Part shown: one piece after another, positions 19,620-23,871 of the stretch
Position numbering within the stretch: position 1 is the stretch's first letter
Layout of the letters: each line of letters begins with the position of its first letter
Assembly (NCBI GenBank): GCA_023511295.1
Contig: JAIMBT010000020.1
Location: forward strand, 1-64,000
Length of the DNA stretch: 64,000 nucleotides
From: Alicyclobacillus sp.
GTDB lineage: Bacteria > Bacillota > Bacilli > Alicyclobacillales > Alicyclobacillaceae
Direction: 5' to 3'
Translations under genes and position numbers: made by a program
Notes under the pieces: generated by a model
What the model was told of the DNA's origin: nothing
The model's database searches: none
Seen by the model: the letters and a program-made list of their open reading frames with translations, nothing else

Positions 19620-19926
19620 CGGCTCGTCCTCCCTCGGTTGGTTTTCCGTTGTGAAGGCAGGGTCGTTTCATCGCGCGCCAGCTGCATCGTCGACTGTTTG
19701 AATCCGCGTCCACAACGTGTCACCTCCCGAGCGAGGGTATGGTCTGAGATGGCGTGAGGAGGCGGAGATCCCATTCCGCCGTCCGGTGCAACCTCACCCT
19801 AGCACGGGTCGATACACGCGTCAACCAGGCAAATGCGGAACAGGCCGCAGGTTTCTGGTTGTCAGATGGTGTCGAATCCAGTAGTCTGAGCGTAGAAGCA
19901 TCTACTGAATCTCGGAAATCCGTTGA
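19620..19926. other. Intergenic region between divergent genes
   Basis: No gene is supported here. The stretch must contain the promoter for the DUF1003 gene on the minus strand and the promoter for the c-di-GMP riboswitch transcript on the plus strand, but no clear -35/-10 pair was picked out. Confidence 0.5.
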
Positions 19927-20014
19927 GGATACGGGCAAACCAGTGGAAACACTGGGACGCAAAGCCGCGGGTCTACCGGCGCGAAGCGCCCATGACGGCC
20001 AGGCCGCTATATCC
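19927..20014 (+). ncRNA. Cyclic di-GMP-I (GEMM-I) riboswitch
   Basis: The core shows the class signature: GGGCAAACC, the hairpin CCAGTG-GAAA-CACTGG, GGGACGCAAAGCC, GGGTCTA, a GGCGC-GAA-GCGCC hairpin, ATGAC, and a closing strand GGCCAGGCCGC. GGATA (19927-19931) can pair with TATCC (20010-20014) to close P1. The 3' strand GGCCGCT (20002-20008) is complementary to AGCGGCC (20022-20028), the 5' arm of the following terminator, so ligand binding should free the terminator and turn expression OFF. The controlled gene is the FapA-like gene 115 bases downstream. Confidence 0.9.
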
Positions 20015-20020
20015 CGAAGG

Positions 20021-20051
20021 GAGCGGCCGCGCGGTGGCGGGCCGCTCTTTT
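20021..20051 (+). terminator. Riboswitch-controlled terminator
   Basis: The stem GAGCGGCC/GGCCGCTC (20021-20028, 20040-20047) is followed by TTTT. Its 5' arm competes with the riboswitch 3' strand for pairing, which makes it a regulated attenuator. Confidence 0.85.
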
Positions 20052-20128
20052 CCGATGCATCGACGGAAGACGGCTGGACCCGTGGCGTCACCAACCCAAC
20101 CACAGCGTGATCGGCGGGGGATGTCGAC

Positions 20129-21943
20129 ATGCAACCCATTTTCGGCGTGATGAAGAGTTGGTTGAGCCGCACCCGAACAGGCGTTTCATCCCATCCGCCG
20201 GTGAGCGCCGATAGCGTCCCTGCGCCGGCCGAGGGATCGGTCGCCGTTGCAGAACGAGAGACGGTCCGACACGGGGCAGTCTCTGTCCGCGACAACCGGG
20301 TGTTTGTGACGGATCCCGATGAGCGCGGTAGCTTTGCAACCCTGGAGATTCCGAACGACCATCGGGTTCGGGTGACTCTGGATGGGCGGCCGCGGATTGG
20401 ACGCGTCATCGTCCGCGAGGGGATGGAGATCACCGTCGAGCTCCTTGCCTCCCGTCCGGCGCTGGAGTGGTCCACCCAAATTTCACCGGATAGAATGGAG
20501 GCGGCTGTGCGGCTCTCCGTACACCCGGGTGAACGGTGCGCGCTGGCCGATGCAGGTCCGGCTCGGCATTTGGCCCTCGTCGTCGCCGCCACGCCGGTGT
20601 TCCCGAAACTGCCCTCGGCATCGAGATGGCGCGCCCGCCTCGAAGCGATTGGGCTGCAGGGAGAGATGGACGATGCGGCGCTCATTCAATTGGCGCTCGC
20701 GCGCACGAGCGTACGGGCGACGGTCGTCCGCGGGAAACCGGCCACCCCGGGGGAACCTCCCCACTTCGTGCCGCTCGCATTGGCGTCGACCGCACAGCCG
20801 TCGGGCGATTGGACGAGCGTCACGATGGGAACTGCGGTGGCGCGAATCGAACCCGGGTTACCCGGCGTGCCCGGTGTGGATGTGTTGGGTCACCCCGTGA
20901 CGCCGCCGGTGCCGCGGGACACGACCACCATCGGCTCCGGTGTCGCGCGGGTCGGCGACCGTCTGATTGCACTGCGGAACGGACAGCTGGTCTGTACGCC
21001 GCGCCGCGTCGACGTGGTACCGGAACTGGTGTTTCGCCACGACGTCACCGCAAAACAGGGTAAGGTCCGGTTCGACGGGAACGTGATAGTCTACGGGAGC
21101 GTTCAGGACGGGTCCTATATCGATTGCACCGGGCACGTGGTGGTCCATGGCAGCGTGCTCTGCGCCACGGTGCTCGCAGCAGCCGGCATCACAGTCAGCG
21201 GCGGTGTGGTGGGTTCGCACCTGGTGGCGGGGCAATTCAACCTGTTGTATAAAAACCTCTACCCGACGTTGGCGGATTTGGTATCGGAGTTCGAACGATT
21301 CCGGGAGGCGCATACCGAACTCGTGCAGCGGGCGGAGCGTCTTCCCGACGGAACCCAGCGCATCCCGCGCATTGCGGATGTGTTGTTGGCTCGGCGGTTT
21401 CCACTGCTGGAACACTACGTAAACTGGTTGTCGAACGACGTGCACCCCCTGTTGCTGCAGGACGACGCGTACCGAGCGCTACGCGCGGAACTGCGGCGCC
21501 GCTGGATTGGGATTGGCAGAACCCACGTGGACGTCGCGGATGTCCATCGCATGCATGACTTGTTGATGGGATACTTGGAGCGGGTGGAGACGGTCGCGTC
21601 GGCTGCGCGCGCGTCTATCCGCGTGGACAGCGTCACGTCCAGTACGTTGCAGGCGTTCGGCGACATTGCGGTGACCGGGGCCGGGACGTATGCCAGTTCG
21701 CTAGAGTCGGGAGGGAGCATCCACGTTCGGGGTATGGTCCGCGGCGGATTTTTGGTCGCACATCGCCAGATCTCGGTCGGGGAACTCGGGACCCCATCGG
21801 GGACGGAAACGAGCGCGAAGGTTGTGAACCCAGATGGGGGGATTCAGGTCGCCACGCGTTACCCGAACACCCTGTTGCAGGTGGGGGAGCGGCGCGACCG
21901 GAATGAAGCCGTAGAGACACGCGTCTCGTTCCGGGAGGTGTGA
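20129..21943 (+). CDS. FapA-like protein (DUF342), c-di-GMP-riboswitch controlled
   Basis: The 604-residue protein has the FapA/DUF342 layout: a long N-terminal domain, a GIPGVDVLG-type turn (here GLPGVPGVDVLGHPV at about 245), then a right-handed beta-helix (about 310-370, VTAKQGKVRFDGNVIVYGSV and HVVVHGSVLCATV), a helical hairpin insertion (about 380-495) and a second helix part with EGGSIHVRG-like turns. The family is called flagellar assembly protein A, but its role is poorly known; it is thought to be a cytoplasmic, surface-related factor. ATG 20129 follows GGCGGGGG. ApbE and L,D-transpeptidase genes follow on the same strand. Confidence 0.82.
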   Translation: MQPIFGVMKSWLSRTRTGVSSHPPVSADSVPAPAEGSVAVAERETVRHGAVSVRDNRVFVTDPDERGSFATLEIPNDHRVRVTLDGRPRIGRVIVREGMEITVELLASRPALEWSTQISPDRMEAAVRLSVHPGERCALADAGPARHLALVVAATPVFPKLPSASRWRARLEAIGLQGEMDDAALIQLALARTSVRATVVRGKPATPGEPPHFVPLALASTAQPSGDWTSVTMGTAVARIEPGLPGVPGVDVLGHPVTPPVPRDTTTIGSGVARVGDRLIALRNGQLVCTPRRVDVVPELVFRHDVTAKQGKVRFDGNVIVYGSVQDGSYIDCTGHVVVHGSVLCATVLAAAGITVSGGVVGSHLVAGQFNLLYKNLYPTLADLVSEFERFREAHTELVQRAERLPDGTQRIPRIADVLLARRFPLLEHYVNWLSNDVHPLLLQDDAYRALRAELRRRWIGIGRTHVDVADVHRMHDLLMGYLERVETVASAARASIRVDSVTSSTLQAFGDIAVTGAGTYASSLESGGSIHVRGMVRGGFLVAHRQISVGELGTPSGTETSAKVVNPDGGIQVATRYPNTLLQVGERRDRNEAVETRVSFREV

Positions 21944-21991: not shown

Positions 21992-22042
21992 GTGGACGTG
22001 GCAAACGGTTGGGCACGAACCTCCACGGTTGTCAACGCGTAA
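21992..22042 (+). CDS. Short leader open frame coupled to apbE
   Basis: GTG 21992 follows a strong AGGAGGAGG and opens a 16-codon frame (DVANGWARTSTVVNA) whose TAA overlaps the apbE ATG as TAATG. It could serve only to deliver ribosomes to apbE, or be the effect of chance; nothing in its residues suggests attenuation. Confidence 0.3.
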   Translation: MDVANGWARTSTVVNA

Positions 22043-22977
22043 TGGCGAGGGCGCGGTTGCGAACGTGGCGGCGCATCGAACTGAAAATGGGGACCCGCGT
22101 CGAGATTCGCGTCGTCACAGACGCTGGGGCACAGGTCGCCGCGGATGCGATTCGGCGCGCGTTCGCCGAAATTTCCCGGGTGGAGGCGGTATGTAGCCGC
22201 TTTGACCCCTCGAGCGAACTGTCCCAGTTGCTCGGCCGCGTCGGTACGCCCGTCCCTGTCAGCGAGATCCTGTACCAGACGCTGGCCTTCGCTCGGGAGG
22301 TCGCGGAACACACGCAGGGGCGTTTTGATCCGACGGTCGGCGCGGACTTGTTGCGCCTCGGATTTGACCGTCACTACCTGACCGGCGAACGGACTCCCGT
22401 ACGTGCAAATAGATTTGACCCAGTGACGTACCGGGACTTCACGCTCGATCCGCTCGAGCACACGGTCACCTTGCACAAACCGATGGTCCTCGATCTCGGG
22501 GCGGTGGCCAAGGGCTTGGCGGTTGATCTCGCCGCTGCAGCCCTCCGCGAGTTTCCGGGCTTTGTGGTGGACGCAGGTGGGGATCTCTTCGCGGCTGGCC
22601 TCGACGAGCGGGGCGCGGTTTGGCGGATTGGCATCCAGCACCCCAACCGGCCGGCGGAGGTCATCTGCTGGTTCGAACAGACCGAATTGGCGGTCTGTAC
22701 ATCGGGGAGCTACGAGCGGCGGAGCCCGCTGGCGCCGGGCAAGCACCACATTGTTTCGCCGGGACGCGATGAGTCGCCGGACGACTGGGTCAGTGTGACG
22801 GCGGTCGGTCCGTCCGCCATGCTGGCCGACGCCTTTTCGACAGCCGCCTTTGTCTGCGGTCGACCGGAAGGCCTGCAATTGCTTGAGGATGTTGGACTGG
22901 AGGGCCTTTGCATCACGGACGCGGCCGAACTGCAAGCAACCCCGGGCCTCTCCGAGCGGCTGCACATCGTCCTGTGA
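22042..22977 (+). CDS. apbE: FAD:protein FMN transferase ApbE
   Basis: The 311-residue enzyme transfers FMN from FAD to a Thr of target flavoproteins. Family motifs are visible: MGTRVEIRVV near the start, CSRFDPSSELSQL, GRFDPTVGAD, DLGAVAKGLAVD, VDAGGDLFAAG, TSGSYERR, HHIVSPG and the C-terminal AMLADAFSTAAFV. No lipobox or signal peptide is evident at the start chosen. ATG 22042 overlaps the stop of a short upstream frame behind AGGAGGAGG; TTG 22009 would add 11 residues but has no ribosome site. It lies between the FapA-like and transpeptidase genes. Confidence 0.9.
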   Translation: MARARLRTWRRIELKMGTRVEIRVVTDAGAQVAADAIRRAFAEISRVEAVCSRFDPSSELSQLLGRVGTPVPVSEILYQTLAFAREVAEHTQGRFDPTVGADLLRLGFDRHYLTGERTPVRANRFDPVTYRDFTLDPLEHTVTLHKPMVLDLGAVAKGLAVDLAAAALREFPGFVVDAGGDLFAAGLDERGAVWRIGIQHPNRPAEVICWFEQTELAVCTSGSYERRSPLAPGKHHIVSPGRDESPDDWVSVTAVGPSAMLADAFSTAAFVCGRPEGLQLLEDVGLEGLCITDAAELQATPGLSERLHIVL

Positions 22978-23061
22978 GACCGTGTGTGGTTAGGGATCTG
23001 CCGTCGGGACATGCTACCTGGGAGTCACCAGGTGACGGGAACGAGGAGGGGAGTGCGGACG

Positions 23062-23871
23062 GTGGGACAGGATGCGACACGTCGGATCTCGCTGCTCGGA
23101 TGCTGGGTCCACCCGCGCCGCAGCGACGCGGGGCGGCGGCGCGGGGCGGTCCGTTGCGGCCCAGGCTCGGGGCGTCCGGTGGGCGTGGCTCGCAGGCGCA
23201 GGGCCGTCGCTGTGTGCAGTTTGGCTGTGTGGCTGACAGGTGCTCTGCTCACTCCGGTGTCCGCTTTCGCCGCGACCGCGGCGACGCCGTCGGAACCATC
23301 CGTCCGGATTGTGATTGACCTCAACCGCCCGGTGTTGCGACTGTACCGCGGCGACGTGCTGGAACGCGCCTATCCGGTGGCGCTCGGCGCACCGCAGATG
23401 CAGACGCCGATTGGGGAGTGGCGCATCGTCGATAAACAGAAGGACTGGGGCGGCGGGTTTGGCACCCGGTGGCTGGGCCTGAACGTGCCTTGGGGGACGT
23501 ATGGAATCCACGGGACGAATCGCCCAGAATCCATCGGAACGTATCAAAGTCACGGCTGCATCCGCATGTACAACCCAGATGTCGAAGAACTGTATGAACG
23601 CGTTCCGCTCGGGACGCCGGTATCCATTCACGGCGATCCACTCCAACACTACCGGGTTCTGGTGCAGGGCAACGTGGGGGCCGACGTGTTGGTGCTACAG
23701 CGGAGGCTGCGCGCGCTCGGGTGGTATCCTGGAAAGTTGGATGGCCGTTTTGGAAGTGGTTTGGAGTGGTCCGTGTTGCTGTTTGAACTCAGCCGCGGGC
23801 TGCCGATGGACGGCCAAGTGGACCGCGGGGACCTGCGTGCGCTCGGGCTGGTTCAGTCGAAAACCGGTTGA
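23062..23871 (+). CDS. L,D-transpeptidase (YkuD) with peptidoglycan-binding domain
   Basis: The 269-residue protein forms 3-3 peptidoglycan cross-links or anchors proteins to the wall. An Arg-rich N-terminus and a hydrophobic segment (about 50-70, ending VSAFA) act as signal peptide or anchor. The YkuD domain (about 80-195) contains IVIDLNRPVLRLYRG, QTPIGEW, the His of YGIHGTN and the catalytic Cys in QSHGCIRM. A peptidoglycan_binding_1-like repeat follows (VLVLQRRLRALGWYPGKLDGRFG). GTG 23062 stands ten bases after AGGAGGGG; further starts up to 22984 are open. Confidence 0.88.
   Translation: MGQDATRRISLLGCWVHPRRSDAGRRRGAVRCGPGSGRPVGVARRRRAVAVCSLAVWLTGALLTPVSAFAATAATPSEPSVRIVIDLNRPVLRLYRGDVLERAYPVALGAPQMQTPIGEWRIVDKQKDWGGGFGTRWLGLNVPWGTYGIHGTNRPESIGTYQSHGCIRMYNPDVEELYERVPLGTPVSIHGDPLQHYRVLVQGNVGADVLVLQRRLRALGWYPGKLDGRFGSGLEWSVLLFELSRGLPMDGQVDRGDLRALGLVQSKTG

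Follow-up and report, generated by a model that had tools for sequence, protein, structure and literature searches.

Does the leader that precedes fapA in the window, i.e. the whole 64,000-nucleotide stretch of Alicyclobacillus DNA analysed here, control this gene in response to c-di-GMP and, if so, in which direction? On the evidence presented below, the leader, a member of the c-di-GMP-I class, very probably acts as a transcriptional OFF switch in the manner of C. difficile Cd1, a reading in which we infer both ligand binding and the direction of control in cells.

Aptamer and target gene

A search with the covariance model RF01051 returned a full-length match (model positions 1–87 of 87; 69.5 bits, where the gathering score is 35; E = 1.5e-11) at 19924–20011 on the forward strand, which is the sole c-di-GMP-I (GEMM-I) riboswitch aptamer in the window. 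The 5′ strand of P1 (GGATA, 19927–19931) has its partner in TATCC at 20010–20014, and the folds predicted for transcripts with ends at 20016–20024 contain the P1 pairing. Alignment to RF01051 assigned P2 to the hairpin CCAGTG-GAAA-CACTGG (19940–19955), whose GAAA tetraloop is of the GNRA type, and P3 is present with two mismatched pairs. The full-length match and the presence of P1, P2 and P3 bear out an earlier sequence-only reading, which had proposed a c-di-GMP-I riboswitch with its core motifs at this site and an RF01051 search as a check, which was passed at the score and E-value given above. Membership of the family is thus confirmed, and c-di-GMP would be the expected ligand.

The same alignment places G19934, A19961 and C20007 (forward strand) at positions taken as the equivalents of the Vc2 ligand contacts G20, A47 and C92, all three of which are intact. 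With G at the G20 equivalent, a c-GAMP-type ligand is presumably to be set aside. V. cholerae Vc2, the structural reference of the family, shares with the window aptamer P1, P2 with a GAAA loop, P3 and the three contact equivalents; the window aptamer differs from Vc2 and RF01051 in having A49·C90 instead of A–U, together with a C54·A86 mismatch. G20, A47 and C92 have been named as important residues in c-di-GMP-I riboswitches (PMC11218506).

The gene controlled is fapA (20129–21943, forward strand), which encodes a DUF342-type flagellar assembly protein A of 604 residues (PF03961, 74.9 bits, cut-off 31; PF20250, 39.4 bits, cut-off 27) and is preceded by a likely ribosome-binding site, GGGGGA (20116–20121), 7 nt before the ATG. 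Since the upstream gene (DUF1003) lies on the other strand, the leader was assigned to fapA. A role of FapA in flagellar assembly has been described for other bacteria, according to PMC11607428 and the title of a reference in PMC9061725, and FapA may have such a role in the window organism. An apbE-family FMN transferase gene (22009–22977; PF02424, 186.7 bits) follows on the same strand 65 nt after fapA, counted from its first possible start, and 6 nt after the apbE frame comes a gene for an L,D-transpeptidase with a peptidoglycan-binding domain (22984–23871; PF03734, PF01471); judging by the spacing, both are possibly part of the fapA transcript.

No consensus sigma-70 promoter was found in 19640–20140. 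An imperfect TTGTCA-17 nt-TAGTCT arrangement, spotted by eye upstream of the leader, is not claimed as a promoter. Also upstream of the leader, CAGGCCGC (19841–19848) lies in a small hairpin and is repeated at 20000–20007 in the aptamer, possibly by chance in GC-rich DNA.

The window genome carries seven c-di-GMP-I aptamers. Behind three of them lie fapA, a PAS-EAL gene and a GGDEF-EAL gene, and a further one, for which no terminator was found, precedes a Tad pilus operon (L069, G000:C32:7500-13500) with, by eye, flp-like pilin, TadE-, CpaB-, CpaE- and CpaF-like genes. Two others are each followed by a short open frame, with a SinR-like regulator carrying a SinI-type domain behind one and a histidine kinase behind the other, and the seventh has a small open frame downstream. 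Domain searches of this genome matched two flagellin, seven GGDEF and two EAL domains, and both EAL genes sit behind c-di-GMP-I aptamers.

Predicted folding of the antiterminator and terminator

Three segments of the leader are exactly complementary in turn: GGCCGCT at 20002–20008, AGCGGCC at 20022–20028 and GGCCGCT at 20040–20046, the last followed by C and TTTT (20048–20051). The middle segment, i.e. the terminator 5′ arm, can therefore form seven Watson–Crick pairs with the aptamer strand and seven with the terminator 3′ arm, and the complementarity between aptamer and terminator arm noted in the earlier reading proved exact over all seven pairs. Sequence, alignment and folding concur that the switching strand at 20002–20008 corresponds to the lower part of P3 together with the ligand pocket (columns 87–93) and not to P1. 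Its pairing with the middle segment, around an inner stem at CCCGAAGGG, constitutes the predicted antiterminator hairpin (20002–20028; −16.7 kcal/mol for the region 20000–20030 alone). The intrinsic terminator (20020–20051) comprises the hairpin GGAGCGGCC..GGCCGCTC and a short U tract (UCUUUUCC, 20048–20051), with a folding energy of −24.1 kcal/mol (−25.2 kcal/mol for 20018–20056); a pattern scan finds a shorter stem within it (20031–20045). All these elements are on the forward strand.

Twenty growing transcripts were folded in a calculation that comprised neither ligand nor tertiary contacts. In unconstrained transcripts ending at 20016–20024, P1 and P2 were formed and the canonical lower P3 was not. 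The antiterminator appeared in the lowest-energy fold at all nine transcript ends tried from 20028 to 20044, and the terminator in the folds of transcripts ending at 20046 or later. As long as the terminator 3′ arm is still missing, the antiterminator is predicted at −52.5 kcal/mol and a fold forced to contain P1 and lower P3 at −45.2 kcal/mol, a gap of 7.3 kcal/mol (9.4 kcal/mol with other transcript ends). Once the 3′ arm is present, the terminator is predicted at −68.3 kcal/mol with the aptamer pairs kept, or −70.8 kcal/mol without them, versus −67.5 kcal/mol for the antiterminator, so that its margin is small (0.8 and 3.3 kcal/mol, respectively; 4.4 kcal/mol with other ends). The energy signs were as in the window in 35 of 41 switches before the 3′ arm and in 29 of the 41 after it, a set that includes the window itself.

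These features suggest the following course of events. RNA polymerase would first make the aptamer (19924–20011). Once c-di-GMP is bound, 20002–20008 (lower P3 strand and pocket) would be held inside the aptamer, leaving the arm at 20022–20028 free to pair with 20040–20046, and transcription would stop at UUUU (20048–20051). Without c-di-GMP, 20002–20008 would pair with 20022–20028, the resulting antiterminator would block the terminator, and fapA would be transcribed. Ligand binding, left out of the calculation, would hold the aptamer and thus lead to termination, and fapA, hence a flagellar or motility function, would be shut down at high c-di-GMP.

This architecture is that of C. difficile Cd1 (Cdi-1-3), a transcriptional OFF switch upstream of flgB in which the terminator is compatible with the aptamer and the antiterminator forms at the expense of the latter (PMC9262584); Cd1 is reported to control a flagellar operon (PMC6200980). 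The two differ in target, which is fapA here, and in sequence, the window case being known from its DNA. A second Gram-positive c-di-GMP-I leader with intrinsic termination, B. thuringiensis Bc1, is described as a long platform with two terminators (PMC11218506), whereas the window has a single terminator, which starts 9 nt past the last aptamer base.

Comparison with relatives

The comparison drew on 41 genomes of the family, inferred to be Alicyclobacillaceae, in which NCBI places Alicyclobacillus; named members are Alicyclobacillus mengziensis, A. macrosporangiidus, A. tolerans and sp. ALC3. The search for c-di-GMP-I aptamers gave 263 matches in 40 of the 41 genomes. A total of 130 were examined, namely all seven of the window genome, most of those linked to fapA and the highest-scoring among the matches listed, a choice by which the set leans to good scores; one duplicate was dropped, leaving 129. 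A hairpin with a U tract was found within 110 nt downstream of 87 of these, and no terminator was detected for the other 42.

Terminator 5′ arms were taken to match when they scored at least 6 of 8 against the 3′ core of their own aptamer. This held for 41 of the 87 arms, while 46 scored below the threshold; shuffled arms averaged 5.99 matches and never exceeded 14 in 300 rounds. As a check on relatedness, grouping at 80% identity reduced the 87 loci to 66 groups, 28 of them with a matching arm; the counts are of sequences, not of independent events. An energy-based swap on an early set of 34 had given only a weak excess (mean −11.96 versus −11.52 when permuted, with 1529 of 20000 permutations as low), presumably because the G+C content of the arms dominates the energy, and the position-wise match with shuffled arms was used instead. 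The match between arm and aptamer strand across the family is thus far above chance, which lends comparative support to the OFF logic. Given the 46 arms below the threshold and the 42 aptamers lacking a detected terminator, this logic does not extend to every member of the family.

In the window, the aptamer strand scores 7 with its own arm and at best 6.5 with the 86 other arms. A shuffled window arm, being GC-rich, matched equally well in 207 of 5000 trials (4%), so that the complementarity taken by itself is only moderately unlikely to arise by chance. For a position-specific view, arms were placed blind to columns 89, 90 and 93, which succeeded for 32. C89 then lay opposite G in five of five cases and U89 opposite A or G in 25 of 27, while C93 lay opposite G in 27 of 30 and U93 opposite A in two of two, the latter being near-identical loci of one group. 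The window's own arm failed this stricter placement owing to a mismatch at column 86, and the window was therefore argued separately. The commonest core, GGGTTGCC, occurs in 37 of the 129 aptamers and the window core, AGGCCGCT, once. The latter departs from the former at columns 86, 89, 90 and 93, and, as the window arm matches its own core over columns 87–93, the differences at 89, 90 and 93 are mirrored on both terminator arms and that at 86 is not. The predicted fold energies, the Cd1-like architecture and these matched differences among relatives together support the OFF logic that the sequence-only reading had put forward.

Lower-P3 mismatches and competing readings

Two lower-P3 pairs are mismatched in the window aptamer, A49·C90 and C54·A86; neither these unusual A·C oppositions nor fapA as the target had featured in the earlier reading. 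Position 90 is U in 127 of the 129 family aptamers and C in two, the window and L006 of the same genome, so that the A49–U90 pair, almost invariant in the family, is A·C in the window with A49 kept, and the model score is still good. At least two of the five lower-P3 pairs are broken in three of the 129 aptamers, namely the window, L112 and L151, where the four broken pairs of L151 may reflect a register error from simple indexing. The bases that cause the mismatches also strengthen the antiterminator. The mismatches could lower or abolish the ligand affinity of the window aptamer, and this leader would be expected to need more c-di-GMP for shut-off or, in the worst case, to switch only poorly. 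As a separate observation, the SinR-like regulator with a SinI-type domain mentioned above (L072:8182-8517) is the gene that sits behind L006.

With the aptamer weakened by both mismatches and the antiterminator strengthened, the leader might have kept the aptamer fold and lost useful sensing of c-di-GMP, and would then be a constitutive or weak attenuator. The rarity of C at position 90 and the two non-standard pairs out of five would fit such a state, as would the preference for the antiterminator before termination, which exceeds that of most switches (−9.4 versus a median of −3.8 kcal/mol). There is also a precedent in Bc1, which is reported to bind c-di-GMP while downstream expression is unchanged (PMC11218506). 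Against this, the match scores double the gathering threshold, none of the ligand-contact residues is altered, and the aptamer strand and both terminator arms depart from the relatives together, a joint change suggesting that switching is still under selection. We therefore hold a loss of sensing to be improbable.

Less credible still is an ON switch, in which c-di-GMP would prevent termination or open translation so that FapA is made at high c-di-GMP. C. difficile does have one class I riboswitch with a positively regulated gene (PMC6200980), and the 42 family aptamers lacking a detected terminator indicate that other platforms exist. In the window, however, the terminator can form alongside the aptamer, whose competitor is the antiterminator, as is described for Cd1 (PMC9262584), and none of the 20 transcript lengths folded showed an alternative antiterminator that needs an intact aptamer. 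Designs with translational sequestration or ON control were ranked lower on the ground that it is the antiterminator that competes with the aptamer. Finally, that the hairpin at 20020–20051 matches the aptamer strand by chance in GC-rich DNA, control being translational or located elsewhere, deserves the least credence: shuffling can reproduce the match at the rate given above and more than half of the family arms (46 of 87) fall below the threshold, but none of the 86 other arms equals the window's own, the family excess is large (41 versus 5.99), and the hairpin, which runs into a U tract, is placed between the aptamer and fapA.

Pairing of fapA and riboswitch in relatives

The OFF switch proposed for the window has a recurrent target. 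FapA matches (E up to 1e-5) were obtained in 26 of the 41 family genomes, including the window's own, and the 43 rows were merged by hand into 38 loci, five rows being pieces of broken or tandem copies (G002, G021, G022, G033). A c-di-GMP-I aptamer lies upstream on the same strand at 30 of these 38 loci, 29 times within about 1.5 kb and once at 2.6 kb (L169). Six loci had no aptamer in the stretch examined (G006, G016:C5, G018:4679751, G027, G028, G030:C73), and two begin at a contig edge (G022:C18, G023:C32).

The aptamer directly precedes fapA, with nothing between, at 10 of the 30 loci. At 16, an EAL domain lies between the two or is fused to FapA. The fusions number four, namely L063:1486-3996 on the reverse strand, recognised by Pfam, L064, recognised by sequence, and L099 and L147, assigned by frame length only. 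The other 12 loci have a separate EAL gene, in some cases broken or out of frame; four of these genes were scanned, all four with an EAL match and three also with a Spo0E-like match (PF09388), and the rest were assigned by motif. The EAL proteins with a C-terminal Spo0E-like domain between riboswitch and fapA are L038:477-1436, L043:3353-4354 (reverse strand) and L055:3225-4226 (reverse strand), and a protein of this kind may link c-di-GMP breakdown to the control of Spo0A. Other genes intervene at four loci, by eye a CheB-like gene (one), STAS and SpoIIE-type phosphatase genes (two) and histidine kinase and TPR-like genes (one); a SpoIIE-type homologue in L060 was examined by domain scan. In two relatives (L168, L172), STAS-like and SpoIIE-type phosphatase genes, identified by eye, come after the riboswitch, with a more distant fapA homologue behind them.

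Another family within this order shows the pairing as well: four of its seven long-FapA loci have an aptamer upstream on the same strand (three directly, one at ~1.9 kb), two have one on the opposite strand and one has none; no aptamer was found at any of the eight partial-FapA loci taken among those listed. The FapA protein alone as a query found no relative in the named genomes, and a six-row FapA alignment found five loci there.

No link between a c-di-GMP riboswitch and fapA was found in the literature searched, in which subscription journals are thinly covered, so that this absence carries little weight. Riboswitch and DUF342 did not occur together in that literature, and c-di-GMP riboswitch and FapA co-occurred only in the reference list of PMC9061725.

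Poly-G tracts in EAL genes of relatives

The coding strand behind each of the 130 aptamers was scanned over as much as 1300 nt for G or C runs of at least 8. This yielded 12 runs of at least 8 G, all at +111 to +238 after the aptamer, and no C run of that length. With L171 added, the tracts comprise 8–21 G at +101 to +238 (L015, L018, L026, L039, L040, L041, L085, L106, L113, L149, L157, L160 and L171). The frame after the run is, by eye, that of an EAL protein in 11 of the 12, and L157 ends at a contig edge. Most tracts have similar flanks, CCCCTTCC-Gn-TATAAATA or close to it. Twelve tracts, i.e. the 11 plus L171, were tested for frame: eight share the frame of at least one upstream ATG, GTG or TTG, and four are out of frame (L041, L149, L160, L171). 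Two fapA contigs start with a poly-G run (L051, L056). A long tract is absent from the other EAL genes of the module (L038, L043, L044, L046, L170), and the window's own leader has no such run.

The tracts raise the possibility of slipped-strand phase variation of a c-di-GMP phosphodiesterase in these relatives, with homopolymer assembly errors as the alternative. No poly-G or slipped-strand phase-variable c-di-GMP phosphodiesterase appeared in the titles and opening parts of the abstracts searched. If so, the EAL genes would resemble C. difficile pdcB, a c-di-GMP phosphodiesterase gene under stochastic control, but pdcB switches by DNA inversion (PMC9286219), whereas the EAL genes carry poly-G tracts near the 5′ end of their coding sequence.

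Implications for the proposed c-di-GMP control of fapA

The riboswitch class and the OFF logic are ordinary and already known from C. difficile Cd1, a placement that is well supported. What is new, as far as the literature searched extends, is fapA as the target and its recurrent pairing with the riboswitch, often with an EAL enzyme between them. With a riboswitch at 30 of 38 loci and an EAL domain adjoining or fused at 16, FapA is tied to c-di-GMP control and its role becomes testable.

Where an EAL gene lies in the riboswitch transcript, the OFF logic would create a self-reinforcing loop. There is a precedent for less phosphodiesterase being expressed when c-di-GMP is high: in C. difficile, expression of the gene for a GGDEF-EAL phosphodiesterase drops 5.1-fold on raising c-di-GMP (PMC6200980). 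Should the poly-G tracts prove phase-variable, some relatives would subject one phosphodiesterase gene to both riboswitch control and random switching.

In the window, riboswitch and fapA have no phosphodiesterase gene between them. Tentatively, and with distinctly less confidence than the OFF switch itself, the window might be seen as a stripped-down form of a family-wide motility module, in which an OFF riboswitch controls fapA and, in many relatives, an EAL gene between them whose product in some cases ends in a Spo0E-like domain or forms one protein with FapA. Low c-di-GMP would then raise the phosphodiesterase and so reinforce itself, poly-G slippage may add heritable random on/off switching, and, in the window, the weakened aptamer and strengthened antiterminator would raise the c-di-GMP threshold at which fapA is shut off.
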